Under the pieces are notes generated by a model that ran no database searches, was not told the DNA's origin, and saw only the letters and a list, made by a program, of their open reading frames with translations. The position numbers and the translations under genes were made by a program. DNA of 64,000 bases from Neoroseomonas soli (GTDB lineage: Bacteria; Pseudomonadota; Alphaproteobacteria; Acetobacterales; Acetobacteraceae). This document shows, one piece after another, positions 13,194 through 64,000 of this stretch (position 1 is the stretch's first letter; every line of letters begins with the position of its first letter). The stretch spans positions 1-64,000 of the forward strand of contig NZ_JAAEDM010000010.1 of assembly GCF_018129065.1 (NCBI RefSeq), in the 5' to 3' direction.

Positions 13194-13696
<503 letters not shown>

Positions 13697-16600
13697 ATGG
13701 CAACCTTCGACGACATCAAAGCCGGAGCGCGGCTTCGCGGTCTGGACGCCGCAGGCGTGGCCGAAATCGTCCAAGTGGCGAGGTTCGGCCCCGATGCGCT
13801 GAACCTGGTCTTCCGCGTGAACGGCCGCGTGGGCGAGCGGCTGGTCTATCGCGGGGAGGAGGCCGGCTTCGAGTTCCTGGAGGCAGGCCGAGCCTACGCC
13901 TTCGACGCTGACGGCAGCCTGCTGCGTCTCGCGTCGGAGGCCTACCGCCTCCGGTTAGCCCACCTCTTCGACCCCTACCTGGCCGTCAGCGCGTCCCAGA
14001 TCGAGGCGCTCCCCCATCAGATCACCGCCGTCTACGGCGACATGCTGCCGCGGCAGCCATTGCGCTTCCTGCTCGCGGACGACCCGGGCGCCGGCAAGAC
14101 GGTCATGGCGGGGCTGCTCATCAAGGAGCTCCTGATCCGTGGCGACCTGGAACGCTGCCTGATCGTCGCACCGGGGAGCCTCGTCGAGCAGTGGCAGGAG
14201 GAAATGGCCGAGAAGTTCGGCCTCCCCTTCGATCTCCTGTCGCGAGACCAGATCGAGAACTCGGTCACCGGCAACCCCTTTGCCGAGCGGAACCGCTTGA
14301 TCCTCCGCCTCGACATGGCCGCCAGGTCCGACGAGCTGAAGGCGAAGCTGAACGCCGCGCCGGAATGGGACCTCGTGATCTGCGACGAGGCCCATCGCAT
14401 GGCCGCGTCGTACTTCGGGGGCGAGGTCAAGGAGACGCAGCGGCACAAGCTCGGTCGGCTGCTGGGCGGCATGGCCCGTAACTTCCTGCTCATGTCCGCG
14501 ACGCCGCACAACGGTAAGGAAGCGGACTTCCAGCTCTTCATGGGGCTGCTCGACGCTGATCGCTTCGAGGGACGGTTCCGCGAAGGCGTCCACAAAGCCG
14601 ACGTCTCCGACATGATGCGTCGCCTCACGAAGGAGGAGCTCTACCGCTTCGACGGAACGCCCCTCTTCCCCGAGCGGCGTGCCTACACCGCCAGCTACGA
14701 GCTCTCGCCCGCGGAGTCGGCTCTCTATCAGGCCGCCACGTCCTATGTGCGAGAGGAAATGAACCGCGCCGATCGCTCCGGCGACGGCAAGCGGCAGAAC
14801 AGCGTGGGCTTCGCCCTGCAGATCCTGCAGCGGCGCCTCGCTTCCTCCCCGGCTGCGATCCACCGCTCCCTGGAACGACGCCGCAAGCGCCTGGAGGAGC
14901 GGCTGCGCGATGAGAAGCTCCTGCGGCAGAATGGCGGTGTGCCACTCAGCCGCGTGCCTGTCCTGCCCAGCTTCGACGCCGACGACCTCGAGGATGCGCC
15001 CGGCGAAGAAGCGGAGGCCATCGAGGAGCAGATCGCCGACCAGGCGACCGCCGCCGCCACCCTCGCCGAACTCGAGGCCGAGATCGTCATCCTCAAGGAT
15101 CTCGAAGCGCAGGCCCTGCGCCTCAAGCTGTCCGGCCAAGACGCCAAGTGGCGCGAGCTCGAGGCCATCCTCGACGACCCCATCATGCTCGATCCGGCGA
15201 CCGGGCTGCGGCGGAAGATCCTGATCTTCACCGAGCCCAAGGATACGCTGGAGTACCTGCAGCAGAAGATCGCCGCCCGTGTCGGCGATCCGGCCTCGGT
15301 GGTCGTCATCCACGGCGGCATCGCACGCGAGGCTCGGCGCGCGGCGATCGCGGCCTTCAACTCCGACCCGGTCGTGCGGGTGATGATCGCGAACGACGCC
15401 GCCGGCGAGGGCGTGAACCTCCAGCGCGGCGCCCACCTCATGGTCAACTACGACCTGCCGTGGAACCCGAACCGCCTGGAGCAGCGCTTCGGGCGCATCC
15501 ACCGCATCGGCCAGACCGAGGTCTGCCATCTCTGGAACCTGTGCGCGACCAACACCCGCGAGGGCGAGGTCTATCAGCGCCTTCTGGAGAAGCTGGAGCA
15601 GGCCCGGGCGGCCCTGGGCGGCAAGGTCTATGACGTCCTTGGCGAGCTGTTCGAGGGCCAGGCCCTTCGCGACCTCCTGGTGGACGCCATCCGCTACGGC
15701 GACGCTCCCGAGACCAAGAGCCGCCTGTTCCAGAAGGTGGACGATGCGGTGGACGTCGATGCGATCGAACGCCTGGTCGCCGAACGCAAGCTGACCTCGG
15801 AGGGCATGGATCCCAACGCGGTCGCCGCCATTCGCGAGGAGATGGAGCGCGCCCAGGCCCGCCGCCTGCAGCCGCACTTCATTGGCGCCTTCTTCCGGGA
15901 GGCATTCCAGCTCCTGGGTGGGCGGATTGCCGAGCGCGAGAAGGGCCGCTTCGAAATCCTGCGCGTGCCGCCGGTGCTCAAGCACCGTGATCGGCTGATC
16001 GGTCGCGGCGATCCCGTGCTGGACCGCTATGCCCGCATGACCTTCGATAAGGGTCTCGTGCCCGGCAAGCCGCAGGCCGAGCTCATGGCCCCCGGCCATC
16101 CGTTGCTCGACGCCGTTCTGGATATCATTCTGGAACGCTTTCAGCCGCTGCTTCAGCAGGGCGGCGTGCTGGTGGATGAAGGCGATGAAGGCCTCTCGCC
16201 ACGACTGCTCGTCTACCTGGAGCACGCGATCCGGGACGGCCGGGTAGCAAAATCGGGCGAGCCCCGTGTCGTGTCGCAGCGCCTGCAGTTCATCCATCTC
16301 CGCGAAGACGGGACGGCCGCCGACGGCGGACCTGCGCCCTACCTCGATTGCCGCCCCATCACGGCCGAGGAACGTGATCTGGTCGCAGATGCGATCACGG
16401 CGCCATGGCTGTCGGGTCGCGTTGAAGAGCAGGCGCTCGGCTACGCCATCGCGAAGCTGGTCCCCGAGCACCTTGGCGAGGTGAAGCGCCGCCGGCTGGC
16501 CGAGATCGACAAGGTGGAGCGGGAAGTCAGGTCGCGCCTCACCCGCGAGATCAACTACTGGGATGCCCGTGCGGCACGGCTCCGCGAGGAGGAGCGCGTC

Positions 16601-17203
16601 GGCAAGGAACAGCGCATCAATGCCAGCAACGCGGAGGCTACGGCCCAGCGGCTCGTCGAGCGCCTGCACAAGCGCCAGGAGGAACTGGCCCGCGAGCGGC
16701 AGATCACCGCGTTGCCGCCGGTCATGAAGGGCGCCGCGCTGATCATCCCGAAGGGCCTCCTCGTTGCGCGGAACCAGCCGACGCGCACTCCCGTTCCGGC
16801 GGGCTTTGCGGAGGACGCGACCTCGCGCGCTGAGGTGGAGCGCCTTGCCATGGAGGCTGTCATGGCCGCGGAGCACGCGCTCGGGCATGTGCCGCGCGAC
16901 GTCTCGGCCGAGAAGAAGGGCTGGGACATCGAGAGCCGCGACATGAAGTCCGGCCACTTGCGCTTCATCGAAGTGAAAGGGCGGCACATCGACGGCGACG
17001 TGATCATGCTGACGAAGAATGAGCTGCTGGCGTCACTCAACAGCCCCGAGGCATTCATCCTGGCCATCGTGCTCGTGGAGGCGGGGTTCGCCCGCGAGCC
17101 CGCCTATGTGCGCCGCTTCTTTCAACGCGAGCTTGGCTTCGCCGAGACTGCCGTGGCGTTCCATGTCGGCGACCTGCTTACGATCGCGGGGAGGCCCGGG
17201 TGA
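13697..17203 (+). CDS. SNF2/DISARM DrmD-like helicase with C-terminal DUF3883 nuclease-like domain
   Basis: This 1168-residue superfamily-2 ATPase is the first gene of the defence operon. The Walker A block LLADDPGAGKTVMAG lies at residues 125-139, the DEAH box (VICDEAHR) at 227-234, and LLMSATPHN near 270. The C-terminal helicase lobe has NDAAGEGVNLQRG and QRFGRIHRIGQTEV near 600. The last 100 residues match DUF3883, an Mrr-like fold, with GWDIES near 1075 and FIEVKGR near 1090 giving a D...ExK pattern. It is inferred to move along or open foreign DNA and possibly cut it. The next gene starts inside its stop codon. Confidence 0.85.
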   Translation: MATFDDIKAGARLRGLDAAGVAEIVQVARFGPDALNLVFRVNGRVGERLVYRGEEAGFEFLEAGRAYAFDADGSLLRLASEAYRLRLAHLFDPYLAVSASQIEALPHQITAVYGDMLPRQPLRFLLADDPGAGKTVMAGLLIKELLIRGDLERCLIVAPGSLVEQWQEEMAEKFGLPFDLLSRDQIENSVTGNPFAERNRLILRLDMAARSDELKAKLNAAPEWDLVICDEAHRMAASYFGGEVKETQRHKLGRLLGGMARNFLLMSATPHNGKEADFQLFMGLLDADRFEGRFREGVHKADVSDMMRRLTKEELYRFDGTPLFPERRAYTASYELSPAESALYQAATSYVREEMNRADRSGDGKRQNSVGFALQILQRRLASSPAAIHRSLERRRKRLEERLRDEKLLRQNGGVPLSRVPVLPSFDADDLEDAPGEEAEAIEEQIADQATAAATLAELEAEIVILKDLEAQALRLKLSGQDAKWRELEAILDDPIMLDPATGLRRKILIFTEPKDTLEYLQQKIAARVGDPASVVVIHGGIAREARRAAIAAFNSDPVVRVMIANDAAGEGVNLQRGAHLMVNYDLPWNPNRLEQRFGRIHRIGQTEVCHLWNLCATNTREGEVYQRLLEKLEQARAALGGKVYDVLGELFEGQALRDLLVDAIRYGDAPETKSRLFQKVDDAVDVDAIERLVAERKLTSEGMDPNAVAAIREEMERAQARRLQPHFIGAFFREAFQLLGGRIAEREKGRFEILRVPPVLKHRDRLIGRGDPVLDRYARMTFDKGLVPGKPQAELMAPGHPLLDAVLDIILERFQPLLQQGGVLVDEGDEGLSPRLLVYLEHAIRDGRVAKSGEPRVVSQRLQFIHLREDGTAADGGPAPYLDCRPITAEERDLVADAITAPWLSGRVEEQALGYAIAKLVPEHLGEVKRRRLAEIDKVEREVRSRLTREINYWDARAARLREEERVGKEQRINASNAEATAQRLVERLHKRQEELARERQITALPPVMKGAALIIPKGLLVARNQPTRTPVPAGFAEDATSRAEVERLAMEAVMAAEHALGHVPRDVSAEKKGWDIESRDMKSGHLRFIEVKGRHIDGDVIMLTKNELLASLNSPEAFILAIVLVEAGFAREPAYVRRFFQRELGFAETAVAFHVGDLLTIAGRPG

Positions 17204-18915
17204 CAGGGTCCGCCGCCCCGGAACTCCGGCTCGACCTGCTCTTGGGGCAAGTCATCCCCGATACGCGGGTTCTGGACGGTTCGCGCCAGTATCCCAAGCC
17301 AACGGCGCTCTCCGAGGTCTTCGACAAAGCAACCCATGTGCGGGGCCTGCTCTCAGGTCTCGATCACCGGGGGGTAGAGTGGCTTCGGCACGTCGCGAGC
17401 AAGCCAACCCTGGAGGCGTGCTCCATCGTATTGGGCCTGTATCCGGGGTGCCCGACCTGGGACGACGTTCTTCTTGACGCCCTCGACATCCAGCAGCAGT
17501 CCGCCGGACGGGTAAGCTTTCGTGTCCGTGCACGGCGTGATGGGTTGAACCGTCCAGGCAATCTGCTCTGGGTCAACCGGGGGGACGAACCCGGAGTTCT
17601 GGTGACCGGAAACCTCGGGAATGGCCTCATCACCTCCCGATGGGACGCGACCGATGCGAACCTCGTTCTGCCGCTCACTGACGTCGCCGAACAGGCACTC
17701 GTCAACTGGTTCGACTTGCTCCACGGCAACAGTCGCCCGTTGACACCTGACGCGGCGACGGCCCCGAGGCTCCGTCTTCCGGATGGCTCCGAGGAGGGCG
17801 CGCGCCTTTGGCGTGATTACCTCGCAAAGCTAGCCGCAGCTGAGGCGGAGCAGCCAGCCCCGGTCGTGGATTCGGAGACTGGCGCGGTCGACCACCCGAC
17901 CGATCCGCCGCCGTCGAAGCAAGTGGTGACCGTGGCGGGCATCGTCCGGCGTATCTTCCCGCGACCCGATCCCGTCTTGTTGTCGCTGCAGGCCGCGCTG
18001 GCCAAGGGATCGCTCGTTTCACTGGATCGAGTGGATCGGATTCCGCCGCTCGATATGCCGATCCGTCCCGAGATGCTCGGTGAGATCGGCACGCGCCGTG
18101 TCGGTGGTGCATCGCGGCGTGTGGCTTACCGCGTCAGCCTGTTCGACGAGAAGACGCAGAAGCAGCTGAACAATCGGCACGGCGACGCCTCCACTCGCTT
18201 GTCGGCCTTCAGCTTGATGCTCCGCGACGGACAGCGCTGGATGCCGGAGAAGGCGTTCCCGCTTTTCGAGCAGGAGCTGGCGGCGTCGCATGAGAAGGCG
18301 ACCAAGGCGCTTCTGGCGGCTATTGGCGGCAAAGCTGCAGCCGATGTCGTGACCGCGCTTTCCGACAAGGTCGCACGCGATCTGCGCGAATTGGCGAAGC
18401 AGGCCGGCCTGACCACCGCACCACCTGATAGTCTCCTGGATGAAGTGCTCGCCGGTCTACGGAAGCGGCTCGAAGCCCATCTGGGCAAGGAGGCTGCGCC
18501 CGGGATCGCCCGCATGGAGGCTCGGCTCGATGCGCGCGAGGATGCGCATCACTCCCCTTGGGGTACGGTCCAGACCTTCCTGGTCTCGGCAGCGCGGCTG
18601 CCGCGCGAGGTGATGAGCGACCCCTTCCGCATGCGCGGCCTGACTACCGAGGCCGACGCATTGCTGCGCGCCTTCGACATCTTCGGCGATGCTCTCGTGA
18701 AGCGGCATCTCGACGGCGGTCGGGTCGAGAATCAAGCCAGGCAGGAGCTGGAGATCATCGAGGAAATCCTGAGCAAAGAGACAGCCACGCCCTGGCACCG
18801 CGCCCAGGCGCTGCACCGGCTCATCACAGGCCAGGGCCCGGATGCAGTGCGCGCGGCGATGACCGAGGAAAGGACGCCAGCGGTCGCACTCACGCCGGGG
18901 AATCCACCTCAGTGA
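17200..18915 (+). CDS. Unrecognised 571-residue protein of the defence operon
   Basis: I do not recognise a family. The first 180 residues look globular. The segment WVNRGDEPGVLVTGNLG followed by GLITSRWDATDANLVLP is faintly like the second half of a phospholipase-D repeat (GSxN...G...N.E), but no HxK pair is present, so this is only a suggestion. From about residue 330 the protein is mostly helical and charged (EKATKALLAAIGGKAAADV, ELEIIEEILSKE). It starts at GTG 17200, which overlaps the helicase stop as GTGA, and the next gene overlaps its own stop the same way, so the three are translated as a coupled unit. Confidence 0.7.
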   Translation: MTGSAAPELRLDLLLGQVIPDTRVLDGSRQYPKPTALSEVFDKATHVRGLLSGLDHRGVEWLRHVASKPTLEACSIVLGLYPGCPTWDDVLLDALDIQQQSAGRVSFRVRARRDGLNRPGNLLWVNRGDEPGVLVTGNLGNGLITSRWDATDANLVLPLTDVAEQALVNWFDLLHGNSRPLTPDAATAPRLRLPDGSEEGARLWRDYLAKLAAAEAEQPAPVVDSETGAVDHPTDPPPSKQVVTVAGIVRRIFPRPDPVLLSLQAALAKGSLVSLDRVDRIPPLDMPIRPEMLGEIGTRRVGGASRRVAYRVSLFDEKTQKQLNNRHGDASTRLSAFSLMLRDGQRWMPEKAFPLFEQELAASHEKATKALLAAIGGKAAADVVTALSDKVARDLRELAKQAGLTTAPPDSLLDEVLAGLRKRLEAHLGKEAAPGIARMEARLDAREDAHHSPWGTVQTFLVSAARLPREVMSDPFRMRGLTTEADALLRAFDIFGDALVKRHLDGGRVENQARQELEIIEEILSKETATPWHRAQALHRLITGQGPDAVRAAMTEERTPAVALTPGNPPQ

Positions 18916-19535
18916 ATGCCGGCCCGCCCGTCATGGAACGGCTGCTCAACGAGCGTGAGGCGATCTATACCCAATTTCATGGATCGTCCGCCGGGCCAGC
19001 ACACTTTTTTCTCGATCAGAATGCTGAGGATTACGCCGCTTACTACACCGCCATGTACCTGATCCAAGATACCGGCGAGGCGATCTACACGCATGCCAAG
19101 CAGGGCTTCGCCGCGTCGAGCATGGCAGCCTACATCGAGTTCTGGGGCGTGATGCAAGCCACCCAGATCCAACAGGACGCCATCGTCGAACTTCGCCGCG
19201 CGATCGTCGGACCACAGCCAAGGCTCTCCCTTGGCCCGGGATGGAGGAAGCTCCGGGACTTTCGGAACCTCGTCGCGGGACACCCAGCCAACAGGTCCCA
19301 CGGCGTCCCAGCCACTCAGCGCGCCTTCATGGGACGGACGCCCTACAGATACGATCGCCTGAGCTACGAGATGTTCGACGCCGCGGCGGCCAGAAACCCG
19401 TCGCCCGCCGCCGGACCTATCCCAGGGATCTCACACCCTGTCGTCGATCTGAGGCAGATGATCAGTGACTATGAATCCGAGGCGGTGCCGATTCTCGGCA
19501 CTGTTCTCTCCTCGCTGCGCGCGCGTTGGCCCTGA
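18912..19535 (+). CDS. Small helical HEPN-like protein of the defence operon
   Basis: 207 residues, nearly all predicted helical, with many aromatic and acidic residues (AEDYAAYYTAMYLIQDTGEAI). Near residue 117 it has RNLVAGHP, an R-x5-H pattern preceded by a helix (WRKLRDF), which fits the catalytic motif RX4-6H of HEPN ribonucleases. The assignment is from the motif and helical character only. GTG 18912 overlaps the upstream stop as GTGA; ATG 18933 is an alternative. It precedes the methyltransferase by 9 bases. If HEPN is correct, it could be an RNA-cutting abortive-infection effector (inference). Confidence 0.6.
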   Translation: MNAGPPVMERLLNEREAIYTQFHGSSAGPAHFFLDQNAEDYAAYYTAMYLIQDTGEAIYTHAKQGFAASSMAAYIEFWGVMQATQIQQDAIVELRRAIVGPQPRLSLGPGWRKLRDFRNLVAGHPANRSHGVPATQRAFMGRTPYRYDRLSYEMFDAAAARNPSPAAGPIPGISHPVVDLRQMISDYESEAVPILGTVLSSLRARWP

Positions 19536-19544
19536 AAGACGAGC

Positions 19545-22433
19545 ATGTCCACTACCCCACGCAAGAAGCTCATCGAAGTCTCCATCCCGCTCGAGGCGAT
19601 CAACGCTGCCTCGGCGCGGGAGAAGTCGATTCGTCACGGGCATCCCTCGACGCTGCACCTCTGGTGGGCGCGGCGCCCGTTGGCGGCGTGCCGGGCGGTG
19701 CTGTTCGCGCAGCTTGTGGACGATCCCTCCTCCTGGCCCGACCGCTTCCCCACGCCCGAGGCGGTAGAGGCGGAGCGGCGCCGACTGCACCACGTGATTG
19801 AGCGCCTGGTGCCCTGGGAGGCCTCGAACAACGAGGAGATCCTGAACGCGGCACGGTGGGAGATCGCGCGCAGCGTCGCCTGGGGCCTCGGCGAGGAGCC
19901 GCCGGCGAAGGAGGATGGCGCAGCCATCCTGGCCTACCTCCAGGCCAAGGCGCCGCCGGTCTATGACCCCTTCTCGGGCGGCGGCTCGATCCCGCTGGAG
20001 GCGCAGCGGCTGGGGCTGCGCGCCTATGGCAGCGACCTCAATCCTGTGGCGGTGCTGATCGGCAAGGCGCTGGTGGAGATCCCGCCGAAGTTCGCTGGCC
20101 TTCCGCCGGTGAACCCGGCGTCCCGCGCGGAGCGCGCGCGGGGCGGGCGCTGGCAGGGGCGCGGCGCGCAGGGGCTGGCCGAGGATGTGCGCTACTACGG
20201 CGCATGGATGCGGGAGGAGGCGGCGCGGCGCATCGGCCATCTCTATCCCGAGGCGACGCTGCCGGATGGCGGCAAGGCGACCGTCATCGCCTGGCTCTGG
20301 GCGCGGACGGTGCGCAGCCCGGATCCGGCGGCTAAGGGCGCGATGGTGCCGCTGGTATCGTCGTTCATGCTCTCGACCAAAGAGGGCAAGAAGACGTGGG
20401 TCGAGCCTCTGCTCGATCCCACCTCCCCCGATGGATGGCGGTTTGAGGTGCGAACCGGAAAGCTGAGCAAGGCAGACGAAGACCGCTTGAAGAGTGGGAC
20501 GAAAACGGGGCGAGGCGGGTTCACTTGTGTTCTGACCGGTGCGGCGATCCCATTCGACTACGTTCGTAATGAGGCTGTTGGACAAGGACTCGGGCAGCGC
20601 TTGATGGCTGTCGTCGCGGAAGGTGCTCGATCGCGCATCTACTGCTCAGCCAGTCGGGACCAGGAAAGGGTTGCGCGATCTGCAGACCCGGCTTGGGGCC
20701 CCGAGGAGCTAGTTACGACCCCTAGTCACGATGTTGACCGTCTGCCGATGTATGGAATGCCGCGGTGGAGGGATGCCTTCACACCTCGCCAGCTTGTTGC
20801 GTTGACGACGTTCTCCGACCTGGTGGCTGAAGCGCGGGATACTGTACTGGCCGATGCGCGGGCAGCTGGACTACCTCATGATGGTCTAACGCTCGCCGAA
20901 GGAGGCAACGGAGCCGCTGCTTACGCCGACGCCGTCGCAACGTACCTTGCGTTCGTCATTAATCGCAGCGTGGATCGTGGATCGTCTATTTGCTCTTGGG
21001 ACAGCAGCCCGAAGATGGAGGCGCTGCGCAATACGTTTGCCCGACAGGCACTGCAGATGACTTGGGATTTCGCAGAAGGTAGCCCATTCTCAAACTCGTC
21101 CGGCAACTTCATCTTCAATGTCGAATGGACCGCTGACGCGCTTAGCCGTGTCCCGGCGGTTGCGAATGGAGCGATCCACAACATAGATGCGGCCAAAAAT
21201 TCCTTTCCGGTTCGACCAATACTTATCTCTACAGATCCACCATATTTCGATAACATCGGCTATGCGGATCTGTCCGATTTCTTCTACGTATGGATGCGCC
21301 ATTCGCTTTCTGGCATTTGGCCTGACCTATTCCGTCGCCTGACTACACCCAAGGCTCGGGAACTGGTCGCTACTCCCTATCGGCACGGCGGAAAGAAGGA
21401 AGCGGAAGACTTCTTCATGCAGGGCATGTCGGAGGCGCTGGTCGCGATGCGCAAGGCAGCGATCGAGGACGCGCCGCTCGCCGTCTACTATGCCTTCAAG
21501 CAATCCGAGGCGGCGCAGGATGGAATCACCTCCGCCGGCTGGGCATCCTTTCTGCAAGCTGTGGTGGATGCCGGCCTTGCCTTGGACGGCACCTGGCCGG
21601 TGCGAACCGAGCTCGCAAACCGGATGATCGGCAGCGGCACCAACGCCCTCGCCTCGTCCATCGTTCTGGTGTGCCGAAAGCGCACGCAAGGTGCCAGCGT
21701 CGCAACCCGCGCCGAGTTTGTACGCGCCCTCAAGCGCGAGATGCCCGACGCCATTGCTGCCATCCGCAAGGCCGGCGTCGGCCCGGTGGACATGCAGCAA
21801 TCCGTCATCGGCCCCGGCATGGGCGTCTTCACCCGCTTCGCCAAGGTGCTGGAGGATGACGACAGCGCCATGCCGGTGAAGACCGCGCTCTCCCTCATCA
21901 ACCGCGTCTGGGACGAGATCGAGAACGAGCTCAGCGAGGCCTTCGACGCGCCGAGCCAGGTCGCGCTCGCCTGGTTTGCCACCTACGGCTTCGACGCCCG
22001 CCCCTCGGGCGAGCTCATCACGCTCGCCAACGCCAAGAACGTCCCGCTCGCCACACTCTTCGCTTCCGGCGTCTTCCAAGATTTGCGCGGAAAGGCCGGC
22101 CTCGTTGCGCGGGAGAACCTGCCCGCCGGCTGGTCCCCGACCAACGACAAGGCGCCCACGGTCTGGGAATGCGTGCAGCACACCATCCGCGTGCTGAACG
22201 CCGAAGACGGCGGCGCCGAGGCCGCCGCAGCGCTCGTCGCGCAGATGGGCCCTCGCGCCGAGGACGCCCGCGCGCTCGCCTACCGCTTGTTCGAGATCGC
22301 CACCCAGAAGGGCTGGGCCGCCGAGGCACTGGTCTACAACGCCCTGGCCCAGGAATGGCCGCGGCTCGCGGACATGGCGCCCGAGGTCATCGCGCGCGGC
22401 CCGGTGGCCGCGGCGCAAGCCTCGCTGTTCTGA
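19545..22433 (+). CDS. DUF1156 (COG1743) adenine-specific DNA methyltransferase
   Basis: A 962-residue modification enzyme. The N-terminal DUF1156 signature is LIEVSIPLEAINAASAREKS with LHLWWARRPLAACRAVL (residues 5-60). The SAM-binding motif I DPFSGGGSIPLEAQRLG is near 140, and the catalytic motif IV TDPPYFDNIGYADLSDF near 562 predicts N6-adenine methylation. These enzymes occur in defence cassettes with DUF499 ATPases and helicases. Bases about 20390-21430, coding for the middle of the protein, are clearly less GC-rich and use more A/T-ending codons than either end, suggesting recombination. It probably marks host DNA as self (inference). Confidence 0.88.
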   Translation: MSTTPRKKLIEVSIPLEAINAASAREKSIRHGHPSTLHLWWARRPLAACRAVLFAQLVDDPSSWPDRFPTPEAVEAERRRLHHVIERLVPWEASNNEEILNAARWEIARSVAWGLGEEPPAKEDGAAILAYLQAKAPPVYDPFSGGGSIPLEAQRLGLRAYGSDLNPVAVLIGKALVEIPPKFAGLPPVNPASRAERARGGRWQGRGAQGLAEDVRYYGAWMREEAARRIGHLYPEATLPDGGKATVIAWLWARTVRSPDPAAKGAMVPLVSSFMLSTKEGKKTWVEPLLDPTSPDGWRFEVRTGKLSKADEDRLKSGTKTGRGGFTCVLTGAAIPFDYVRNEAVGQGLGQRLMAVVAEGARSRIYCSASRDQERVARSADPAWGPEELVTTPSHDVDRLPMYGMPRWRDAFTPRQLVALTTFSDLVAEARDTVLADARAAGLPHDGLTLAEGGNGAAAYADAVATYLAFVINRSVDRGSSICSWDSSPKMEALRNTFARQALQMTWDFAEGSPFSNSSGNFIFNVEWTADALSRVPAVANGAIHNIDAAKNSFPVRPILISTDPPYFDNIGYADLSDFFYVWMRHSLSGIWPDLFRRLTTPKARELVATPYRHGGKKEAEDFFMQGMSEALVAMRKAAIEDAPLAVYYAFKQSEAAQDGITSAGWASFLQAVVDAGLALDGTWPVRTELANRMIGSGTNALASSIVLVCRKRTQGASVATRAEFVRALKREMPDAIAAIRKAGVGPVDMQQSVIGPGMGVFTRFAKVLEDDDSAMPVKTALSLINRVWDEIENELSEAFDAPSQVALAWFATYGFDARPSGELITLANAKNVPLATLFASGVFQDLRGKAGLVARENLPAGWSPTNDKAPTVWECVQHTIRVLNAEDGGAEAAAALVAQMGPRAEDARALAYRLFEIATQKGWAAEALVYNALAQEWPRLADMAPEVIARGPVAAAQASLF

Positions 22434-22444
22434 AGGAGCCCGGC

Positions 22445-22993
22445 ATGCGTTTTCGAGTGTTCGGCCCATTCACGATTCCGCGGAACACGAACGGCCTCAT
22501 CTCGTTCAACAAGGACGCCAAGCGCGAGTTCTGGGAGGGCGTCGAGTCGGCGTGTGAGGGCGTCTCGTCAGGCTGCGGCTGCTACATCGTCGCGGCGGCT
22601 GGCGGGAACGGGGCCAAGCCCCACTATGTAGGCCTAACGGTACGGCGCTCGTTCAAGGCGGAGTGCTCCGCAGCCCACGTGATCAACCACTTCAATGAGG
22701 TTATCGCCGGGAAGCCCAAGCTTCGGCCGCAGCTCTTCCTCATCGCGAAGCTCACGCCAACCGGTCGCTTCGCAAAGCCGTCCTCGTCCGGACATGCCGA
22801 CATCAGGTTTCTTGAGAACTACATGATTGGCCTGGCTCTCGACCGGAACCCGGAGCTGCGCAATCAGAAGCAGACCAAGCACCTGAAGGACCTCCACGTC
22901 GAAGGCTTCCTCAACACCGGCCAAGGCAAGCCGAGCCCGAGCGCGAGCAGCCTTCGAACTCTTCTCGGACGTAAGGCGGGCAAGAAGAAATGA
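22445..22993 (+). CDS. Stand-alone GIY-YIG nuclease-like protein
   Basis: 182 residues. GCYIVAAAGG (residues about 39-48) followed by HYVGLTVRRSFKAEC (about 60-74) fits the GIY and YIG strands with the conserved arginine after them. FLENYMIGLAL (near 122) could supply the glutamate, and ELRNQKQTKHLKD the asparagine. GIY-YIG domains cut DNA with one metal ion. The tail is short and basic (GRKAGKKK). A ribosome site GAAGGAG precedes ATG 22445, and its stop overlaps the next gene's ATG. An embedded GIY-YIG protein is not a standard part of the DISARM sets I know. The family call is moderate. Confidence 0.65.
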   Translation: MRFRVFGPFTIPRNTNGLISFNKDAKREFWEGVESACEGVSSGCGCYIVAAAGGNGAKPHYVGLTVRRSFKAECSAAHVINHFNEVIAGKPKLRPQLFLIAKLTPTGRFAKPSSSGHADIRFLENYMIGLALDRNPELRNQKQTKHLKDLHVEGFLNTGQGKPSPSASSLRTLLGRKAGKKK

Positions 22994-25900
22994 GCGACGA
23001 AAAGGAAACGCTCCGCCGGGTGCAGGATGCCCTGTTCCACCTGCGCAAGGGGTTGGCGCCCTTCGTCGCCGCGCGGATGTCGCGCGCGCGCGGTCCCGAC
23101 TGGCTGCGCCTGGCGAGCCGCGCGACGGGCGCTTCGCCGGATGAGGCGCTCGACGCCTATGGCCTGCTCAAGACGATGATCGACAACTGGCGCGATGCCT
23201 TCGACGAGGCGTTCAGCCGGAACGACAAGCACAAGGCCCGCAACTTCGCTTCCATGGCGCTCGAGGCGCGCAACGCTGCCTCGCACCTCGCCATCCCGAT
23301 GGCCGATGACGAGGCGCTCCGCTACCTCGACGCCATCCATCAGCTTCTGCGCCTGGTGAAGGCGCCAGAAGCCGAGGTGGCCGAGGCGAAGAAGCTCTAC
23401 GAGGCTCAGCGCCATGTCGGCGTTGCCGCGGCGCCCGCCACGCCGCAGCCCACGCCTGCGCCGCAGCGGCTGGAATTGCAGTCGGCGGATGGACCTGCGA
23501 AGGCCCTCAAGCCATGGATCGAGGTGGCGCTGCCCCACCCCGACGTCATCGCGAATCGATTTAAGGAGGCCGAGTTCGCCGCGGACCTCTTCGCGGTGGA
23601 TGCGGGCCACGCGACAGACGGCTACGCCACGCCCGCGGACTTCTTCGGCATCACCTTCCTGACGGAAGGGCTGAAGCGCGTGCTGACCTCGGCGCTGCAG
23701 CGCCTGTCGGGCGCGGGTGGTGATCCGGTGATCGGCCTGCAGACCGCTTTCGGCGGCGGCAAGACGCACACCATGCTCGCCATCTATCACCTGGCGAAGC
23801 ATCTGCGCGAAGGCGGCGACCCCGCCGCGCTCGGCGGCATGGCGCCCCTGGTCGAGAAGCTCGGAATTACTGCCTGGCCGAAGCCGCGCGTCGCCGTCTT
23901 CGTTGGTTCGTCGAAGGGGGCGGATGTCTCCTTGACCTTGGGTGGCGGCCCGCCCGTACGCACGCTGTGGGGCTACATCGCCTGGCGCCTGGCAGGTGAG
24001 GCTGGGCTGAAGCTGGTGGCGGAAGCCGAGGCTGCCCGCACCAACCCGGGCTCCGAATTGCTGGTCGCACTGTTCAAGCTGGCGGGACCGAGCGTCATTC
24101 TGCTCGACGAGCTGACGATGTTCGCGCGGCAGCTCGACGACGACCGCTTCGAGGCCTTCCTGTCCTTCATCCAGTCGCTGACCGAAGCGGCGAAGATGGT
24201 GCCGGGCATTCTCATTGTCGGGTCGCTGCCCGAGAGCCGTGCGGAAGCCGGTGGTCCGCGCGGCGTCGAGGCGCTGCTGCGGCTGGAGAAGGTCTTCGGC
24301 CGTGTCCAATCGGCCTGGCTGCCGGCCTCCGGCAACGAGACCTACGAGATCGTCCGTCGCCGCCTGTTCCAGCCGCTGGATGCGGATGGCGAGCGCGCCC
24401 GCGAGGAGACGATCAAGGCCTTCCACGATCTCTACAAGAAGAACCCCGCCGAGTTTCCGCCCGAGGCGAAGGAGCCGCGGTATCTCGAGCTGCTGCGCCT
24501 CTCCTACCCAATCCATCCGGAGCTGTTCGAGCGGCTGGCGAAGGACTGGTCCAGCCTCCAGAAGTTCCAGCGGACGCGCGACGTCATCCGCTTCATGGCG
24601 AACGTGGTCGGCGTGCTGTGGCACGGGCAGACGCGAGACCCGCTAATCACTCCGGCCCGCGTGCCGGTCGCGCATGAGAAGGTGCGCACAGGGGTGCTCT
24701 ATCCCCTCGATCCGGCCTTTGGGTCTGTGGTCGACAAGGAGGTGGACGGCGACGGGGCGTTGCCGGCCCGTATGGAGGCCAATCCGTCCCGCCGAATCTC
24801 TCAGCTGCGGGCTGCCACGCGAGCGGCGCGCTCGGTCTTCCTGTGTTCAGCGCCGTCCGTCGGGCAGCCGAATGCGGGGCTGACAGGCCAGGGTTTGCGC
24901 TTGGCCTGCGCCGAGCCGGGCGATCAGCTGGCCATCTTCGGCGAGGCTCTACGCGAGCTCAGCGAGCGGGCGACCTACCTCTACGAAGAGGCCGGGCGCT
25001 ACTGGTTCTCCACTCAGCCGACCCTGAACCGGCTGGCGGATGATCGGGCCAAGGCGTTCCTGGATCAGGTGCACGAGGTGGATGCCGAGATCGTTCGCCT
25101 CCTGACGGAGGATGCCGGGACAAAGGGCGGCTTCCATCGCGTCTTCGCCGCGCCCGATGACCCCGTGACGATCGATGAGGCACAGGCCCTATCCCTCGTC
25201 ATCCTGGGGCCGAGCACGCCGCATGCCGGGAAGGGCGCGACGAAGTCGGCAGCGTCGGATGCGATCGCGGAGGCGCTGATGCGTTGCCGCGCGTCGCAGC
25301 GCCGCTTCCGCAACACGCTTCTGTTCGTCGCGGCTGACGAAGCGAACCTGGCGACGGCGCGCGAGGTGATCGCCAAGGCGATGGCCTGGGACTCCATCGT
25401 GAAGGACAGCCGCCTGCAGCAGCAGATGACGAATGCGCAGGAGGCGGACGCGAAGGACAAGGCGAAGACCCACGGTGACGGTGCGCGCCGTGCTGTCCGG
25501 TCCGCCTGGAGCCATGTCTTCTATCCGGTGAAGAGTGAGACGGCGGGAAAACCCTTCGACCTCGAGCACACGCTGATCTCGTCGCGCGACCGGGCCGCAA
25601 TCCCGGCTGTCGTGTACGAGAAGGCGAAGGGCGACGGCATCGCGCTGGAGAAGCTCGGGACGGAGCGGCTTTGGCTGGCGCTGAGGCCTATATGGCCGGA
25701 GGACCGCGCCCATCTGCCGATCGCCGAAGTGGCGGATTGGTTTGCGTCCTACGTCTACCTCCCGCGGCTGCGGGATCGCGTCGTGCTAGAGAACACCATC
25801 CGCGACTCGGTGGCGAAGCTCGATCCCGAGTTCGGCTACGCCGATAGCTACGACGAGGCGACGGGGCGGTACCGCAACCTCGTCTGGGCGAAGAACCTCA

Positions 25901-26322
25901 CCGAGCTCCCCTCCGCGAATGCGATCCTGGTGCGCGCAGCGGAAGCACGAGCTCAGCTCGCAGAGGCGCAGGCAAAGCCAGATGGAGTTCCCGCGGGCGC
26001 TGATCCGCGGCCGCATCCCGGATCAGGGAATGCGAATGGAGGGCGTGAGCCGACCGCCTCGCCCCCGACCTCGGCGCCACAGAAGCCGCGTCGCTTCTAC
26101 GGTTCGGTCGAGATCGACATGGTCCGCCCGATGAAGTCGTTCGATGCGATCTTCAATGCGGTGGTCATGGAGTTGCAGCGGACAAGCGGTGCGAAGGTGA
26201 AGCTCACGCTGGAGATTGAAGGGGAGGCGCCGGAGGGATTCGACGAAAGCGAGGTCAGCGTCGTGCGTGACAACGCGAAGCAGCTGAAGTTTAGGCCTGA
26301 GTCGACGGGGTTTGAGGAGTAG
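22990..26322 (+). CDS. DUF499 (COG1483) ATPase with HEPN/Swt1-like N-terminus
   Basis: A 1110-residue AAA+ protein. Residues 1-125 are helical and contain ARNAASHL, an R94-x4-H99 motif, matching HEPN_Swt1-type domains. An Ala/Pro linker leads to the ATPase, with Walker A AFGGGKTH at 253-260 and Walker B VILLDEL near 367. The C-terminus (RRFYGSVEIDMVRPMKSFD, then QLKFRPES) is characteristic of DUF499 proteins. It starts at ATG 22990, overlapping the GIY-YIG stop by 4 bases. DUF499 and DUF1156 proteins often travel together in defence islands. It may be the sensor or motor of the system (inference). Confidence 0.85.
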   Translation: MSDEKETLRRVQDALFHLRKGLAPFVAARMSRARGPDWLRLASRATGASPDEALDAYGLLKTMIDNWRDAFDEAFSRNDKHKARNFASMALEARNAASHLAIPMADDEALRYLDAIHQLLRLVKAPEAEVAEAKKLYEAQRHVGVAAAPATPQPTPAPQRLELQSADGPAKALKPWIEVALPHPDVIANRFKEAEFAADLFAVDAGHATDGYATPADFFGITFLTEGLKRVLTSALQRLSGAGGDPVIGLQTAFGGGKTHTMLAIYHLAKHLREGGDPAALGGMAPLVEKLGITAWPKPRVAVFVGSSKGADVSLTLGGGPPVRTLWGYIAWRLAGEAGLKLVAEAEAARTNPGSELLVALFKLAGPSVILLDELTMFARQLDDDRFEAFLSFIQSLTEAAKMVPGILIVGSLPESRAEAGGPRGVEALLRLEKVFGRVQSAWLPASGNETYEIVRRRLFQPLDADGERAREETIKAFHDLYKKNPAEFPPEAKEPRYLELLRLSYPIHPELFERLAKDWSSLQKFQRTRDVIRFMANVVGVLWHGQTRDPLITPARVPVAHEKVRTGVLYPLDPAFGSVVDKEVDGDGALPARMEANPSRRISQLRAATRAARSVFLCSAPSVGQPNAGLTGQGLRLACAEPGDQLAIFGEALRELSERATYLYEEAGRYWFSTQPTLNRLADDRAKAFLDQVHEVDAEIVRLLTEDAGTKGGFHRVFAAPDDPVTIDEAQALSLVILGPSTPHAGKGATKSAASDAIAEALMRCRASQRRFRNTLLFVAADEANLATAREVIAKAMAWDSIVKDSRLQQQMTNAQEADAKDKAKTHGDGARRAVRSAWSHVFYPVKSETAGKPFDLEHTLISSRDRAAIPAVVYEKAKGDGIALEKLGTERLWLALRPIWPEDRAHLPIAEVADWFASYVYLPRLRDRVVLENTIRDSVAKLDPEFGYADSYDEATGRYRNLVWAKNLTELPSANAILVRAAEARAQLAEAQAKPDGVPAGADPRPHPGSGNANGGREPTASPPTSAPQKPRRFYGSVEIDMVRPMKSFDAIFNAVVMELQRTSGAKVKLTLEIEGEAPEGFDESEVSVVRDNAKQLKFRPESTGFEE

Positions 26323-27415
26323 AGCTCGCTTTCGCTCCGGAAGGCGCCGTCTTGTTCCTCCGCGAATAAGCGGCACGCACCGCCGGCATGTCGGCGCTCA
26401 CCTTTGTTTTGTGGAGGGCGTCCAGCGCCTTCTGCGAGTAGCGGGGATGCTTCGACGCGCCGATCTTCAAGACCTTGAACGCCTCGGGATCGCTCTTGAG
26501 CCCGAGGTGATAGACCAACGCACTCGCCTCGAACTCATTCAAGGCCAGCTTCTTGGCCAGGTCCTTGAGACCAAGTGTGAAAATATCGGTGTCGTTCACT
26601 CGGCGGATCGCTATGGCGGCGCCTCCAGGCTCTCCATCCTTCGTGACCTTGACCGCGACGCCTTCCTGCTTCGAAAGCCGAAGGCTGAGGGTTGGGCCGC
26701 TACCGTCTGCGGTGATGTTGACCGCGGCGACACCTGGAAAAAGATCCTTCCAAGACCGACCCTGCCGAACGGCTTGTGAAAGCGCCTTCAGTTGCGCCGC
26801 GGTCGGTTGGCCTTCCTCGCCCTTGATCGCTCGATCCAGGATGGACATTGCGCGGAGGCGCTGCTCCGCGAGCTGCGCTTTCCGACTGCCTGGTCGCAGC
26901 AGTTGCCGGACCGCCTCGTGTTCCTGTGCGAATAGCGTCATCAGATCCACGGGCGGCGTGGTCGATACCGGAAGTACTCGCGCGGGCATCATGGACACGA
27001 GCTTCCGCCCAAAAACCTTGTCCAACAGGTCGCGAAACAAGGTCACGCCAGTTTGGGCATGGAGGTAAAGGCTGGCCTCCGAAAGGGTGACGAGGTGGTG
27101 CTGGGCTGCGTCCCGAAGGCTATTCAAGGCCTGCAGCGTAATCGACTGCTCCTCGGTCAAGAATGCAATTTTCGAATCGCTCAGCGCCCGTCGAACGCAG
27201 AGGGAGAAGCCAATCGTCTGGTTCTCGCGGCCCGTCTCGCGGATCGAACCACCCCGATGGAGGATCGCGGCCTTCAGCAGCATTTCGAAGGCGTGGTCCA
27301 TCAGGATCAGTGTGGCTGCCACTCGCCCTCTCTCGTGGGGGCGATTGAACACCTCGATGCCGAGCAGGAGTGAGTCGCCCGCCTTGTCGAGAAGTTGCCG
27401 TGCCTCCCGCCGCAT
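26291..27415 (-). CDS. DUF3644 family protein, HEPN-like
   Basis: 374 residues. The N-terminal part (LLDKAGDSLLLGIEVFNRP, LILMDHAFEMLLKAAILH) is typical of DUF3644. LRDAAQHHLV gives an R101-x4-H106 pattern as in HEPN nucleases. The second half carries alternating strands and a winged-helix-like end (YSQKALDALHKTK). It converges on the DUF499 gene and overlaps its end by 32 bases. DUF3644 proteins are common next to restriction and abortive-infection genes. It may be an extra effector or an independent system; the sequence does not decide. Confidence 0.75.
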   Translation of the reverse strand: MRREARQLLDKAGDSLLLGIEVFNRPHERGRVAATLILMDHAFEMLLKAAILHRGGSIRETGRENQTIGFSLCVRRALSDSKIAFLTEEQSITLQALNSLRDAAQHHLVTLSEASLYLHAQTGVTLFRDLLDKVFGRKLVSMMPARVLPVSTTPPVDLMTLFAQEHEAVRQLLRPGSRKAQLAEQRLRAMSILDRAIKGEEGQPTAAQLKALSQAVRQGRSWKDLFPGVAAVNITADGSGPTLSLRLSKQEGVAVKVTKDGEPGGAAIAIRRVNDTDIFTLGLKDLAKKLALNEFEASALVYHLGLKSDPEAFKVLKIGASKHPRYSQKALDALHKTKVSADMPAVRAAYSRRNKTAPSGAKASSTPQTPSTQA

Positions 27416-27447
27416 CCGGTTAGCGTTCCCTGATAGGTTGCTGGTTC

Positions 27448-27478
27448 GTTATAGCGGCGCGGCGGGCAGAAACGCCAA
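27448..27478 (-). promoter_or_regulatory. Possible sigma70 promoter of the DUF3644 gene
   Basis: On the minus strand TTGGCG and TATAAC are separated by 19 bases, and the -10 ends 32 bases before the ATG at 27415. The spacing is slightly long. Confidence 0.4.
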
Positions 27479-27518
27479 GGAGCCACGAATCGGAACCCTG
27501 AACCCAAAGAGTAACAGA

Positions 27519-27905
27519 TCAGGAGGACGGAGTAGCGATGTGCTGCGACTGCCCCTCCCACTTCACCGGAAACGGCTGCATCAGGGCTGGCAGCGCCATT
27601 CCCTCCGGTTGCCGTCCGTCCAGGATCGCCTCGACGATGTCCGGTGCCAGTAGGGTCAGCCGCAGCACACGAGAGACGTAGGACGAGTTGATCTTCTCCG
27701 CCGCGGCCAGTTCGTTGATGGTGGAGAAGCGGCCCGTCTCCAGCATCCGCCGCCACCGGAACGCCCGCGCCACCGCCTTGATGAGCGTGATGTCCTGCCG
27801 GCGCTCCAGTGCCAGCACGCCCGGCGTGACCATCGCCTTCCGCCCGCCCCGTGGCTTCACCCGGAGCGGGATAACCACCGTGAGGGTCTGCGCCGCGTCG
27901 CTCAC
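27519..27905 (-). CDS. ParB/HTH-like small protein linked to the recombinase
   Basis: 128 residues starting at GTG 27905 inside the recombinase stop (GTGA). The central part (RMLETGRFSTINELAAAEKINSSYVSRVLRLTLLAPDIVEAIL) has the form of a helix-turn-helix like those of ParB relatives: ITELA...NSSYVSRVLRL. Proteins of this kind regularly follow serine recombinases with DUF2924 partners in alphaproteobacterial prophages. It may be a DNA-binding accessory factor in integration or excision. It ends 104 bases from the DUF3644 gene, so the left prophage boundary is probably in or near that gap (inference). Confidence 0.7.
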   Translation of the reverse strand: MSDAAQTLTVVIPLRVKPRGGRKAMVTPGVLALERRQDITLIKAVARAFRWRRMLETGRFSTINELAAAEKINSSYVSRVLRLTLLAPDIVEAILDGRQPEGMALPALMQPFPVKWEGQSQHIATPSS

Positions 27906-29254
27906 GCCGCCGCCCTCCCGGCTTCGGGCGCCTGGGCGGCCAGGTCGCGCACCAGGCTGCCGAGCCCGTCCAGCCGCAGCCGTACCGCGGCGCCCTCGGC
28001 CCGGACGTCGATGCGGTCCACCAGCAGCCGCACGATGCGCGCCCGTTCGGCGGGGAACAACTCGTCCCACAGTGGCTCGATCCGCTCCAGCGCCAACAGC
28101 ACCTCCTGCTCCGTCACGTCCGGCGCTGTGGCGCGCGCCGCCCGCCAGGTGCCGACCACCATCTCCGGCTGCCGCAGCAGCGCGCGGACCTGAGCGACCA
28201 CCGCCGCCTCGATCTCGCCGGCCGGAACCCGAGGGATTTTCGGCCGCTCCGTCGCGCCGACCTTCAGCACGCCCTGGCTGACATAGTAGCGGTACATCTG
28301 CCCGCCCCGGCCGCGGCTATGGCTCGGCGACATGGCGCGACCGTCGCTGTCGAAGATCAGCCCGCGCAGCAGCGGCGCGGTGGTGTTCCGTGTCCGGTTG
28401 ACCCGCACGCGCGGGCTGACCTGTAGGACGGCGTGCACCGCGTCCCACTGCGTCTGCGCGACGATGGCGTCGTGCTCGCCGGGATAGGCCGTGCCCTTGT
28501 GCACCGCCTCGCCGAGATACACGCGGTTGCTCAGGATCCGGTAGACGTCGCTTTTCGTCAGCGGCCGGCCCCGCTTCGTGGTGGCACCCTCGGCGCGCAG
28601 CACCTGCACCAGCCTGGTGCAGGACTCCAGCTCCACGAAGCCCTGGAAGATCCGCCGCACCAGCGTGGCCTCGGCCTCGTTCACCATCAGTTTCCGCTCG
28701 CGCACGTCGTAGCCGAGCGGCACGAAGCCGCCCATCCACATGCCGCGCTTGCGCGACGCCGCCACCTTGTCGCGGATGCGCTCGCCGATGACCTCTCTTT
28801 CAAATTGCGCAAAGCTGAGCAGGATATTCAGTGTCAGCCGGCCCATGCTGGTCGTCGTGTTGAAGCTCTGCGTGACCGACACGAACGTCACATTGTTCGC
28901 ATCGAACACCTCGACCAGCTTGGTGAAGTCAACCAGCGAGCGGCTCAAGCGATCGATCTTGTAGACCACCACCACATCCACCAGCCCCTCCTGGATGTCA
29001 GCGACGAGGCGCTTCAGGGCGGGGCGTTCGAGTGTTCCGCCGGAGATGCCACCGTCGTCGTAGCGGTCGCGGACGAGCACCCAGCCCTCGGCGCGCTGGC
29101 TGGAGATGTAGGCCTCGCAGGCCTCGCGCTGCGCGTCGAGGGAGTTGAACTCCATATCGAGGCCTTCCTCGCTCGACTTCCGGGTGTAGACCGCGCAGCG
29201 CAGCTTCCGGACGGTCGCCGGCATGGCGGCGGCCGGCTTCGCGTCCCGCTTCAT
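27902..29254 (-). CDS. Large serine recombinase (phage integrase)
   Basis: 450 residues. The N-terminal resolvase domain has the catalytic serine in YTRKSSEEGL (Ser26/27) and the arginine-rich YKIDRLSRSLVDF. FERE...RIRDKVAASR leads into the long helix. A recombinase domain follows (PLGYDVRERKLMVNEAEA, then LTKSDVYRILSNRVYLGEAVHKG). The DNA-binding C-terminus is shorter than in phiC31-type enzymes. It inserts the phage genome without need of a tRNA site. It overlaps DUF2924 upstream and the HTH gene downstream by 4 bases each, forming a compact integration operon at the left end of the prophage. Confidence 0.92.
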   Translation of the reverse strand: MKRDAKPAAAMPATVRKLRCAVYTRKSSEEGLDMEFNSLDAQREACEAYISSQRAEGWVLVRDRYDDGGISGGTLERPALKRLVADIQEGLVDVVVVYKIDRLSRSLVDFTKLVEVFDANNVTFVSVTQSFNTTTSMGRLTLNILLSFAQFEREVIGERIRDKVAASRKRGMWMGGFVPLGYDVRERKLMVNEAEATLVRRIFQGFVELESCTRLVQVLRAEGATTKRGRPLTKSDVYRILSNRVYLGEAVHKGTAYPGEHDAIVAQTQWDAVHAVLQVSPRVRVNRTRNTTAPLLRGLIFDSDGRAMSPSHSRGRGGQMYRYYVSQGVLKVGATERPKIPRVPAGEIEAAVVAQVRALLRQPEMVVGTWRAARATAPDVTEQEVLLALERIEPLWDELFPAERARIVRLLVDRIDVRAEGAAVRLRLDGLGSLVRDLAAQAPEAGRAAA

Positions 29255-29757
29255 GCCGCACTCCGGCTCGGGCGCAGCCCGAAGAACACGCGCCCGTTCC
29301 AGCGCGTGCCGGTGATGGCGCGGGCAATGGCGGAGAGCGACTGGTAGGGCTGGCCGCCGTACTCGTAGCCGGCGCGCGTCACCGTGACGATGTGCTCGAC
29401 GCCCTGATACTCGCGGATCAGCTGCGTTCCGGCGATCGGCTTGTCCTCGCCGCGCATGCGGCGGACGCTGACCTTGCCGCCGTCGAGCTGCTCGCCGAGC
29501 GCCTCAAGCCGGGCCACCGTCTCTGGCTTCAGCCCGCCGTAGGCCAACTCCTGGATCCGGTAGGCGAGCCGGCTCTCCAGGAAGCGCCGGTTGTAGGGCG
29601 GCGGTTCCGTGCCGAAGAGCTCCCGCCACTGCTGCTTCAGCGCGGGCGTGGCGGCCGCCTTCAGGGCAGCGAGCCGGCCCAGCACGTCGGCCGGCGGGAT
29701 GGCAGGTGCGGTGAACGCCGGCGGGGTGGCGGGCTTCGGCTTCGTGGTGCGCGTCAT
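29251..29757 (-). CDS. DUF2924 protein
   Basis: 168 residues: a Thr/Pro/Lys-rich start, then LKQQWRELFGTEPPPYNRRF and LESRLAYRIQELAYGG, and a C-terminal YEYGGQPYQSLSAIARAITG that resembles the DNA-contacting RAMA-like segment found in these proteins. DUF2924 genes nearly always precede a serine recombinase in this order, but no biochemical role is known. The ATG at 29757 gives the family-like start; the stop overlaps the recombinase ATG (ATGA). It is probably the first gene of the integration operon. Confidence 0.82.
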   Translation of the reverse strand: MTRTTKPKPATPPAFTAPAIPPADVLGRLAALKAAATPALKQQWRELFGTEPPPYNRRFLESRLAYRIQELAYGGLKPETVARLEALGEQLDGGKVSVRRMRGEDKPIAGTQLIREYQGVEHIVTVTRAGYEYGGQPYQSLSAIARAITGTRWNGRVFFGLRPSRSAA

Positions 29758-30002
29758 GCGTCTCTCCGGGTGGTCCGGTTTGCATGCAGGCGCTGGGCGG
29801 CCGGGAAGTGTAGCAACCGCTCTCCGCGGTCCGCAGCGTCGCGCGCAGCTTCCGCGGCAGCGCGGCTGCGCAGCCGCAGCAGGCCGCGCGCGAGAACGTC
29901 GCACACCTCGCGGAGGTGGGGTGGGAGGTGGTGATTGGTCGAGGTCGGCAGGGGCATCGCGATCCAACACGCATGGTCCTGCCTGTTATGTACGGATTTG
30001 GG

Positions 30003-63550: not shown

Positions 63551-63778
63551 GGTGAATATTGGCCCGCGACCCAAAGCGATCGCAACTATCGGACTGCCTG
63601 GAACGGGCCGCCGCAGGCCACTTCGCTGCGGCCAGCGGAAAGTCGATCGACTGGCGCGACGACAAGAGGGGGTGGCGGTGTGGGCTAGCGACAGTCGGAT
63701 GCCCTCAATCTCGCTCACTGCGCTCACCCCGCGCTGACGCGCATTGCTCTGCTTCCTTCCTTCCACATGGAGACGTCC
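63551..63778. other. Gene-free gap before the tail chaperone gene
   Basis: 228 bases between the divergent HNH gene and the tail gene. It should hold the promoter of the cargo pair. It is less GC-rich next to the HNH start. No repeat or terminator stands out. Confidence 0.4.
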
Positions 63779-64000
63779 ATGCTCACCCTCGACCTCCCGG
63801 CCGAGCCGTATTGGCTCGACCTGCCGCGCGGCGTCCGCGTGGAAATCCGACCCGTGACCACCGCCGTCATGGCCGCCGCGCAGGCCGCCGCGGCCCGCCG
63901 TCTCGCCGCGATACGCCTCGCCGATCCGGATCTCGATCCCGACATGTCGCGCGGCCTCTCCTTCGCCTTCCTGGTCAAGGCGCTCGCGCGGCACGCCGTC
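63779..64000 (+). CDS. Phage tail assembly chaperone-like protein (runs off right edge)
   Basis: The first 74 residues are visible: LTLDLPAEPYWLDLPRGVRVEIRPVTTAVMAAAQAAAAR, then a helical part with DPDLDPDMSRGLSFAFLVKALAR. This is the usual start of the tail assembly chaperone encoded between tail tube and tape measure genes. GGAG 6 bases before ATG 63779 decides the start over ATG 63767. It shows that the tail operon resumes after the cargo insertion. Confidence 0.7.
   Translation, partial: MLTLDLPAEPYWLDLPRGVRVEIRPVTTAVMAAAQAAAARRLAAIRLADPDLDPDMSRGLSFAFLVKALARHAV

Follow-up and report, generated by a model that had tools for sequence, protein, structure and literature searches.

The described defence system closest to the seven-gene locus analysed here, which lies in a 64,000-nucleotide stretch of Neoroseomonas soli contig NZ_JAAEDM010000010.1 (the whole stretch is called the window below), is Hma. 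Its arrangement was noted in 2013 (PMC3710099), the name was given in 2021 with 1,638 instances (PMC8565338), and a 2026 survey equates it with the Type-1, DUF499-centred BREX-related (BR) system (PMC12839542). According to that survey, the helicase of Type-1 BR systems has a nuclease at its C-terminus, and some members bear a HEPN domain on the DUF499 ATPase; in the model given there, which resembles restriction-modification (R-M), HmaB marks self, HmaC does the screening, HmaA translocates and cuts, and HEPN serves as back-up (PMC12839542). A TUDOR domain at the beginning of the helicase and an RRM at the C-terminus of DUF499 are further features of the type. HmaB is an m5C methylase in PMC8565338 and an adenine methylase in the PADLOC model and PMC12839542. 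Genes placed within such loci, the Hma-embedded candidates (HEC), have been traced to a 2024 preprint by Payne, and several proved to be working defences active against phages (PMC12111858, PMC12988326, PMC11411939).

The seven genes had been predicted to form one unfamiliar system. The locus is very probably an Hma system (Type-1, R-M-like) in which the gaps between the core genes, and the downstream edge, have collected accessory genes as separate add-ons that come and go individually. Three uncatalogued genes lie between Hma genes and a fourth extra gene stands at the end; all of these may encode defence proteins that have yet to be described.

Core genes of the locus

The core proteins were compared with the PADLOC models. 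HmaA matched its model with 1575 bits over residues 1-1164 of 1168, HmaB with 1142 bits over residues 5-948 of 962, and HmaC with 800 bits over residues 172-1109 of 1110, the last match covering positions 2-940 of the 941 in the profile. The three genes lie in the order HmaA, HmaB, HmaC on one strand and in one operon, with inserts at the A-B and B-C gaps. A NOV_C domain was found by Pfam at residues 1047-1128 of HmaA (2e-20), and HmaC combines a Swt1-like HEPN domain (PF18731) at residues 14-123 (3.1e-14) with DUF499 (2.9e-25). Intact motifs were observed in HmaA (GAGKT at 131, DEAH at 230, IEVKG at 1091), HmaB (DPFSGGG at 141, DPPY at 564) and HmaC (RNAASH, GGGKT at 255, ILLDE at 370). By family membership and intact motifs, the core of the locus is an Hma system. 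Both Type-1 BR features are present, a C-terminal restriction endonuclease (NOV_C with the IEVKG motif) on the helicase and HEPN_Swt1 on the DUF499 protein. Type-2 BR systems are marked by DUF3780 and Type-3 ones by PglZ with iSTAND; neither DUF3780 nor PglZ gave a Pfam match among the seven proteins. With strict cut-offs, and with the genome itself included, HmaA (E 1e-200) was found in one of 35 genus genomes and in 9 of 289 class genomes, and HmaB (E 1e-150) in 14 of 398 phylum genomes.

The fourth gene with an existing model is the convergent DUF3644 gene. Its product matches the PADLOC candidate PDC-S19 with 495.7 bits over residues 1-355 of 374 and Pfam DUF3644 at 2.3e-16; DUF3644 is listed as a HEPN family (PMC3710099). 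Four of the seven proteins are therefore covered by existing, separate models, which contradicts the proposal of an unfamiliar single system. The 571-, 207- and 182-amino-acid (aa) proteins remained unmatched in PADLOC at E 0.1, and no family was found for them above cut-off in Pfam, PADLOC, NCBIfam or PHROGs.

The layout itself agreed with the original prediction in coordinates and junctions. All seven open frames are present, six on the plus strand and one convergent on the minus strand. The plus-strand junctions are, in order, GTGA, GTGA, 9 bp, 11 bp and ATGA, and the end of the DUF3644 gene overlaps that of HmaC by 32 bp. The codon score was best of the six frames in the proposed one for all four genes tested (571-, 207- and 182-aa and DUF3644), the smallest margin being that of the 571-aa gene (0.122 vs 0.006 for the antisense frame). 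Promoter and terminator scans gave a yield not above that of shuffled sequence. The same prediction was right in describing a defence locus and a single operon, with a core of helicase, methylase and AAA ATPase and a mix of nuclease- and RNase-like domains; its names for the helicase, DUF1156, DUF499 and DUF3644 families agree with Pfam.

Table 1. Features of the locus and its borders in window coordinates.
Feature	Position	Strand	Basis or remark
tRNA-Ser(CGA)	13194..13283	+	ARAGORN, Rfam tRNA; the element probably has its left edge at the 3' end
HmaA: SNF2-type helicase with C-terminal PD-(D/E)XK-like (NOV_C) domain	13697..17203	+	PADLOC, Pfam
571-aa protein, no known family, A-B slot	17200..18915	+	GTGA overlap with HmaA; relative in L064
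207-aa protein, no known family, A-B slot	18912..19535	+	HEPN-like motif RNLVAGH only; codon bias
HmaB: DUF1156 DNA methyltransferase	19545..22433	+	PADLOC; DPFSGGG and DPPY motifs
182-aa GIY-YIG-like protein, B-C slot	22445..22993	+	motif residues kept in two remote relatives
HmaC: N-terminal Swt1-like HEPN and DUF499 AAA+ ATPase	22990..26322	+	PADLOC, Pfam
DUF3644 protein, PADLOC candidate PDC-S19	26291..27415	-	PADLOC, Pfam
Serine recombinase (phage integrase type)	27902..29254	-	Resolvase/Recombinase Pfam; phrog_95 integrase, 352 bits

Comparison with the Falsiroseomonas tokyonensis locus

A sister locus in Falsiroseomonas tokyonensis (L064 in Table 1) carries HmaA, the 571-aa gene, HmaB, HmaC and a relative of the window recombinase, in that order. 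HmaA is 93% identical overall between the two loci, and the shared DNA block runs from window position 13270, in the last bases of tRNA-Ser, to 29954, its recombinase-side part (27549-29954) being common to both at 78%. The block is interrupted at three clean junctions. Window 18831-19550 stands against 54 bp in the sister locus, where the 207-aa gene is absent; 22434-22998 stands against 29 bp, where the GIY-YIG-like gene is absent; and 26331-27548, which holds the convergent PDC-S19 gene, has no counterpart. In F. tokyonensis the 571-aa gene has a 4-bp overlap with HmaA and another with HmaB, which it enters by ATGA, so the 207-aa gene of the window sits exactly at that junction.

Since the sister locus is without three of the seven genes while the other four are kept, the genes vary independently, an outcome that the original prediction had itself named as refuting it. 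A dedicated seven-gene system, as first proposed, has operon-like overlaps or short gaps at each plus-strand junction in its favour; with the rest of the sister locus intact, four of the seven genes covered by separate models and the convergent DUF3644 gene outside the operon, it is hardly credible.

Within HmaB the shared block is broken as well, by two diverged patches similar in length. HmaB is 91%, 55% and 87% identical between the loci over residues 1-280, 281-560 and 561-962, respectively. The diverged middle corresponds to window 20385-21224, a pattern suggestive of a change of specificity between loci that are close in other respects. Because methylases of these BREX-related systems carry a target-recognition domain insert (PMC12839542), residues 281-560 probably hold the target-recognition region, and target specificity would have changed between the sister loci. 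Exactly three genes, together with the strongly diverged middle of HmaB, set the two loci apart; the pair is a clean natural comparison that allows testing how Hma exchanges cargo and specificity.

Insert slots and the uncatalogued genes

To place these inserts among those of other loci, 49 Hma loci were assembled from plasmids, whole genomes, IMG/VR, F. tokyonensis and the window. As rough fractions, an insert of at least 250 bp was present in the A-B gap of 25 of the 39 measurable loci and in the B-C gap of 11 of 39, the latter count including by hand L061, whose HmaB is broken by a transposase insert. The HmaC match extends into the N-terminal HEPN part in 25 of the 39 loci measured for B-C (by alignment, not by domain search); in some loci it begins about 150-170 residues in and the HEPN part is missing. 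Twenty slot proteins were tested against PADLOC and 14 gave matches. The matches were to Septu PtuA/PtuB (L036), HEC-02 (L050), HEC-01 (L055), HEC-09 (L043), and PDC-S06 and PDC-M38 (L052), with weak or partial ones to a PARIS-like pair (L012, weak), TmtA (L013, partial) and PDC-M26 (L050, partial). The embedded-gene architecture is thus already in print. The 2023 PADLOC models do not include the 571-, 207- and 182-aa genes, unnamed genes being beyond the reach of literature searches, and the locus adds these three to a setting in which several embedded genes have proved functional.

Large proteins were also seen in slots. The A-B slot of L013 (4755-8996) and L014 (4518-9008) is filled by a protein of 1413-1496 aa, with a 490-aa relative in L038 (4527-5999); the L013 protein begins with a sacsin-type ATPase and is the one with the partial TmtA match. 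In Gordonia plasmid pGKT2 (L062:6311-8809) an 832-aa A-B slot protein had no Pfam or PADLOC match and represents another uncatalogued embedded gene.

Relatives of the 571-aa protein were sought with six 8-residue patterns in a genome collection described by its providers as holding 84,980 species, a scan that detects close relatives only. Eighty pattern matches led to one relative, that of F. tokyonensis, at 81% identity (79-81% across comparisons) and between HmaA and HmaB as in the window. The protein was found in its own genome only, both among 150 genomes of the order and among 398 of the phylum, and had no match in 72,556 plasmid records. Relatives of the 571-, 207- and 182-aa genes were not found in plasmids at E 1e-3 or, by peptide patterns, in viral contigs, and the PDB yielded no significant match. 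Kept with Hma in both loci, the 571-aa gene stands first among the candidates for a new defence protein of the embedded kind. Alternatively, it could be a lineage-specific fourth Hma subunit that this branch needs, rather than independent cargo. Its position in both sister loci, the 4-bp overlaps on either side in F. tokyonensis and its absence, in the searches above, from places without Hma are consistent with a subunit. Its relatives are absent from the other compared Hma slots (phmmer E of 0.15 at best, once the protein and its sister are set aside) and from the 11 viral-contig loci, and the A-B slot is often used for cargo; we regard the subunit as a rather unlikely explanation.

The 207-aa protein carries the HEPN-like motif RNLVAGH at residue 118 and has no Pfam match above cut-off. 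Motifs of this type occurred in shuffles of the same protein, R[ND]x(3-5)H in 187 of 2000 and Rx(4-6)H in 1579 of 2000, and the HEPN label, drawn from the motif, is weak. Weak matches appeared in 3 of 288 other class genomes; these lie inside enolase-like, CoA-transferase and hydantoinase proteins and were taken as chance.

At E 0.01 the 182-aa protein found matches in seven of the 289 class genomes, its own included; of the six others, two are near full length (33% and 30% identity) and four partial. Residues G45, Y47, Y61, G63, T65 and E124 are invariant in the protein and its two remote relatives; G-x-Y, Y-x-G and the metal-binding Glu are presumably the GIY-YIG residues. The catalytic Arg is not clearly conserved among the three. 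Against a GIY-YIG profile built from 11 domain stretches (15 were read; three on the wrong strand and one near-copy were left out), the match spans 20 columns, the motif only (E 7e-4, probability 26). No Pfam family was found for the three sequences at E 10, and the single NCBIfam match of the 182-aa protein is below cut-off (E 0.08). From GxY, YxG, T, Glu and the 20-column match, the protein is best called GIY-YIG-like. The GIY-YIG and small-HEPN labels of the original prediction are motif-based; neither protein has a Pfam match above cut-off, and the true HEPN domain sits in the DUF499 protein.

Around five of the six non-self relatives of the 182-aa protein, in 9 to 19 kb each (some limited by contig ends), no Hma gene was found; 3.1 kb was viewed around the sixth. 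A possible second case of Hma with a GIY-YIG-like gene was rejected, as HmaA and the partial 182-aa match sit on different contigs of that genome (G213) and the 12 kb after the match holds no Hma gene. Phage records gave no relatives of the 182-aa protein. In L066 (186-1895) a relative of this protein stands just ahead of a 251-aa open frame in which an HNH-like stretch was seen by eye; the arrangement hints at a separate two-gene unit.

Several points weigh against an Hma locus with separate defensive add-ons. The activity of every gene in the locus is predicted from its sequence, and the 571-, 207- and 182-aa proteins belong to no catalogued HEC or PDC family of PADLOC-DB 2.0.0. Structure prediction gave low predicted local distance difference test (pLDDT) scores, 33.5 for the 571-aa protein (two-row alignment) and 35.8 for an all-helical model of the 207-aa protein (single sequence). 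The 571-aa gene turned up only together with Hma and so may be a subunit, not cargo. Gain and loss of the extra genes cannot be told apart because only one close sister locus was found. The slot fractions are rough because the sample is non-random and partly redundant: it holds the window, the near-duplicates L013/L014, L036/L054 and L043/L044, and plasmid hits chosen by hand (18 of 53 records). Six of the 20 slot proteins tested had no PADLOC match (one of L050, and those of L015, L018, L048, L056 and L062).

The contents of other slots also bear on whether the extra genes are defence genes at all; they could be toxin-antitoxin-like, regulatory or decaying passengers. Slots elsewhere hold an annotated HicB and RelE/ParE pair (L011), XisH/XisI (L018), a four-helix-bundle protein (L012, L056) and transposases (L056, L061). 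Set against this, the frames of the extra genes are intact and coding-like, one of them is conserved at 81%, and several slot proteins tested elsewhere are known defence modules; passengers of this kind are an improbable account. Separate add-ons of an Hma locus are the preferred reading. As a tentative extension, the 571-aa protein could be the first of a new anti-phage family in Hma, present in two loci and acting alone or as a module with the 207-aa protein, and the GIY-YIG-like gene a second, unrelated new embedded effector.

The biochemical steps at the locus can be inferred as follows. HmaB would methylate self DNA, with its variable middle region determining the site. The AAA+ ATPase HmaC would assemble on incoming DNA and screen it, and HmaA would translocate and, through the nuclease at its C-terminus, cut DNA that is unmarked. 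As a last resort, HmaC would act as an RNase by way of its HEPN domain. Separate add-on effectors or helpers against phage would be encoded by the 571-aa gene, either by itself or jointly with the 207-aa gene, by the GIY-YIG-like gene and by PDC-S19. Those inside the operon would be co-expressed with Hma by translational coupling, and all would be gained or lost singly.

Genomic setting and relation to described systems

The Hma operon sits between tRNA-Ser and the serine integrase. The tRNA-Ser stretch was matched in 29 of 29 genus genomes; that query stopped 17 bases past the tRNA, so its match ends say little, and the edge was taken from comparison with 20 kb of three same-genus genomes. 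Similarity past the tRNA stops at 13283, 13289 and, in the closest genome, 13548. Because it stops at or soon after the tRNA 3' end, the element most likely begins there. No tRNA was found in the F. tokyonensis locus, which has CTCCGCCAGTTCC in common with the window around the tRNA 3' end. At the right end, synteny was not resumed against the same 20-kb stretches, and the 93.6-kb contig contained the tRNA-end core in a single exact copy.

Window 27902-61272 is a prophage with the serine integrase, DUF2924, a Sak4-like protein, a phage helicase, a primase/helicase, two ParB-domain DNA methylases, terminase gpA, portal, capsid, endolysin and a minor tail protein. Hma may be cargo of the prophage or a neighbour at the same site. 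HmaA relatives of at least 48% identity were found in eleven IMG/VR viral contigs; the available stretches of these loci held no relatives of the four extra genes (571-, 207- and 182-aa and DUF3644), and phage records gave no HmaB relatives at E 1e-50. A lower-GC region close to the window's last position encodes, on the minus strand (61916-63994), a 692-aa protein that has an HNH_2 domain at its C-terminus.

Two other systems were considered as the home family. The predicted link to DISARM-like cassettes stands in that the helicase family is common, with DrmD and BrxHII matches to the window HmaA in PADLOC. DISARM was rejected because the helicase is far under the NCBIfam DrmD cut-offs (367 bits vs 610, and 164 vs 950), and the HmaA model fits far better; Drm proteins other than DrmD were sought among the seven proteins. 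ARMADA, with its YprA helicase, was also set aside, as the text of its preprint (PMC12458937) makes no mention of DUF499, DUF1156, GIY-YIG, HEPN, COG1743 or COG1483. BREX type 3 shares the related helicase family and, as stated in PMC12839542, a methylase link, and differs in that none of the seven proteins has a Pfam match to PglZ.

The DUF3644 protein agrees with PDC-S19 over the matched length and no difference was seen. Like the HEC genes, the extra genes of the operon lie between Hma genes on the same strand, the 571- and 207-aa genes at A-B and the 182-aa gene at B-C, but their products match none of the HEC models. With Hma and Type-1 BR the locus shares the order of the three core genes on one strand, the HEPN domain fused to HmaC and the nuclease-like domain on HmaA; it differs in that its operon holds about 2.9 kb of uncatalogued genes, with the 1.1-kb PDC-S19 gene adjoining.

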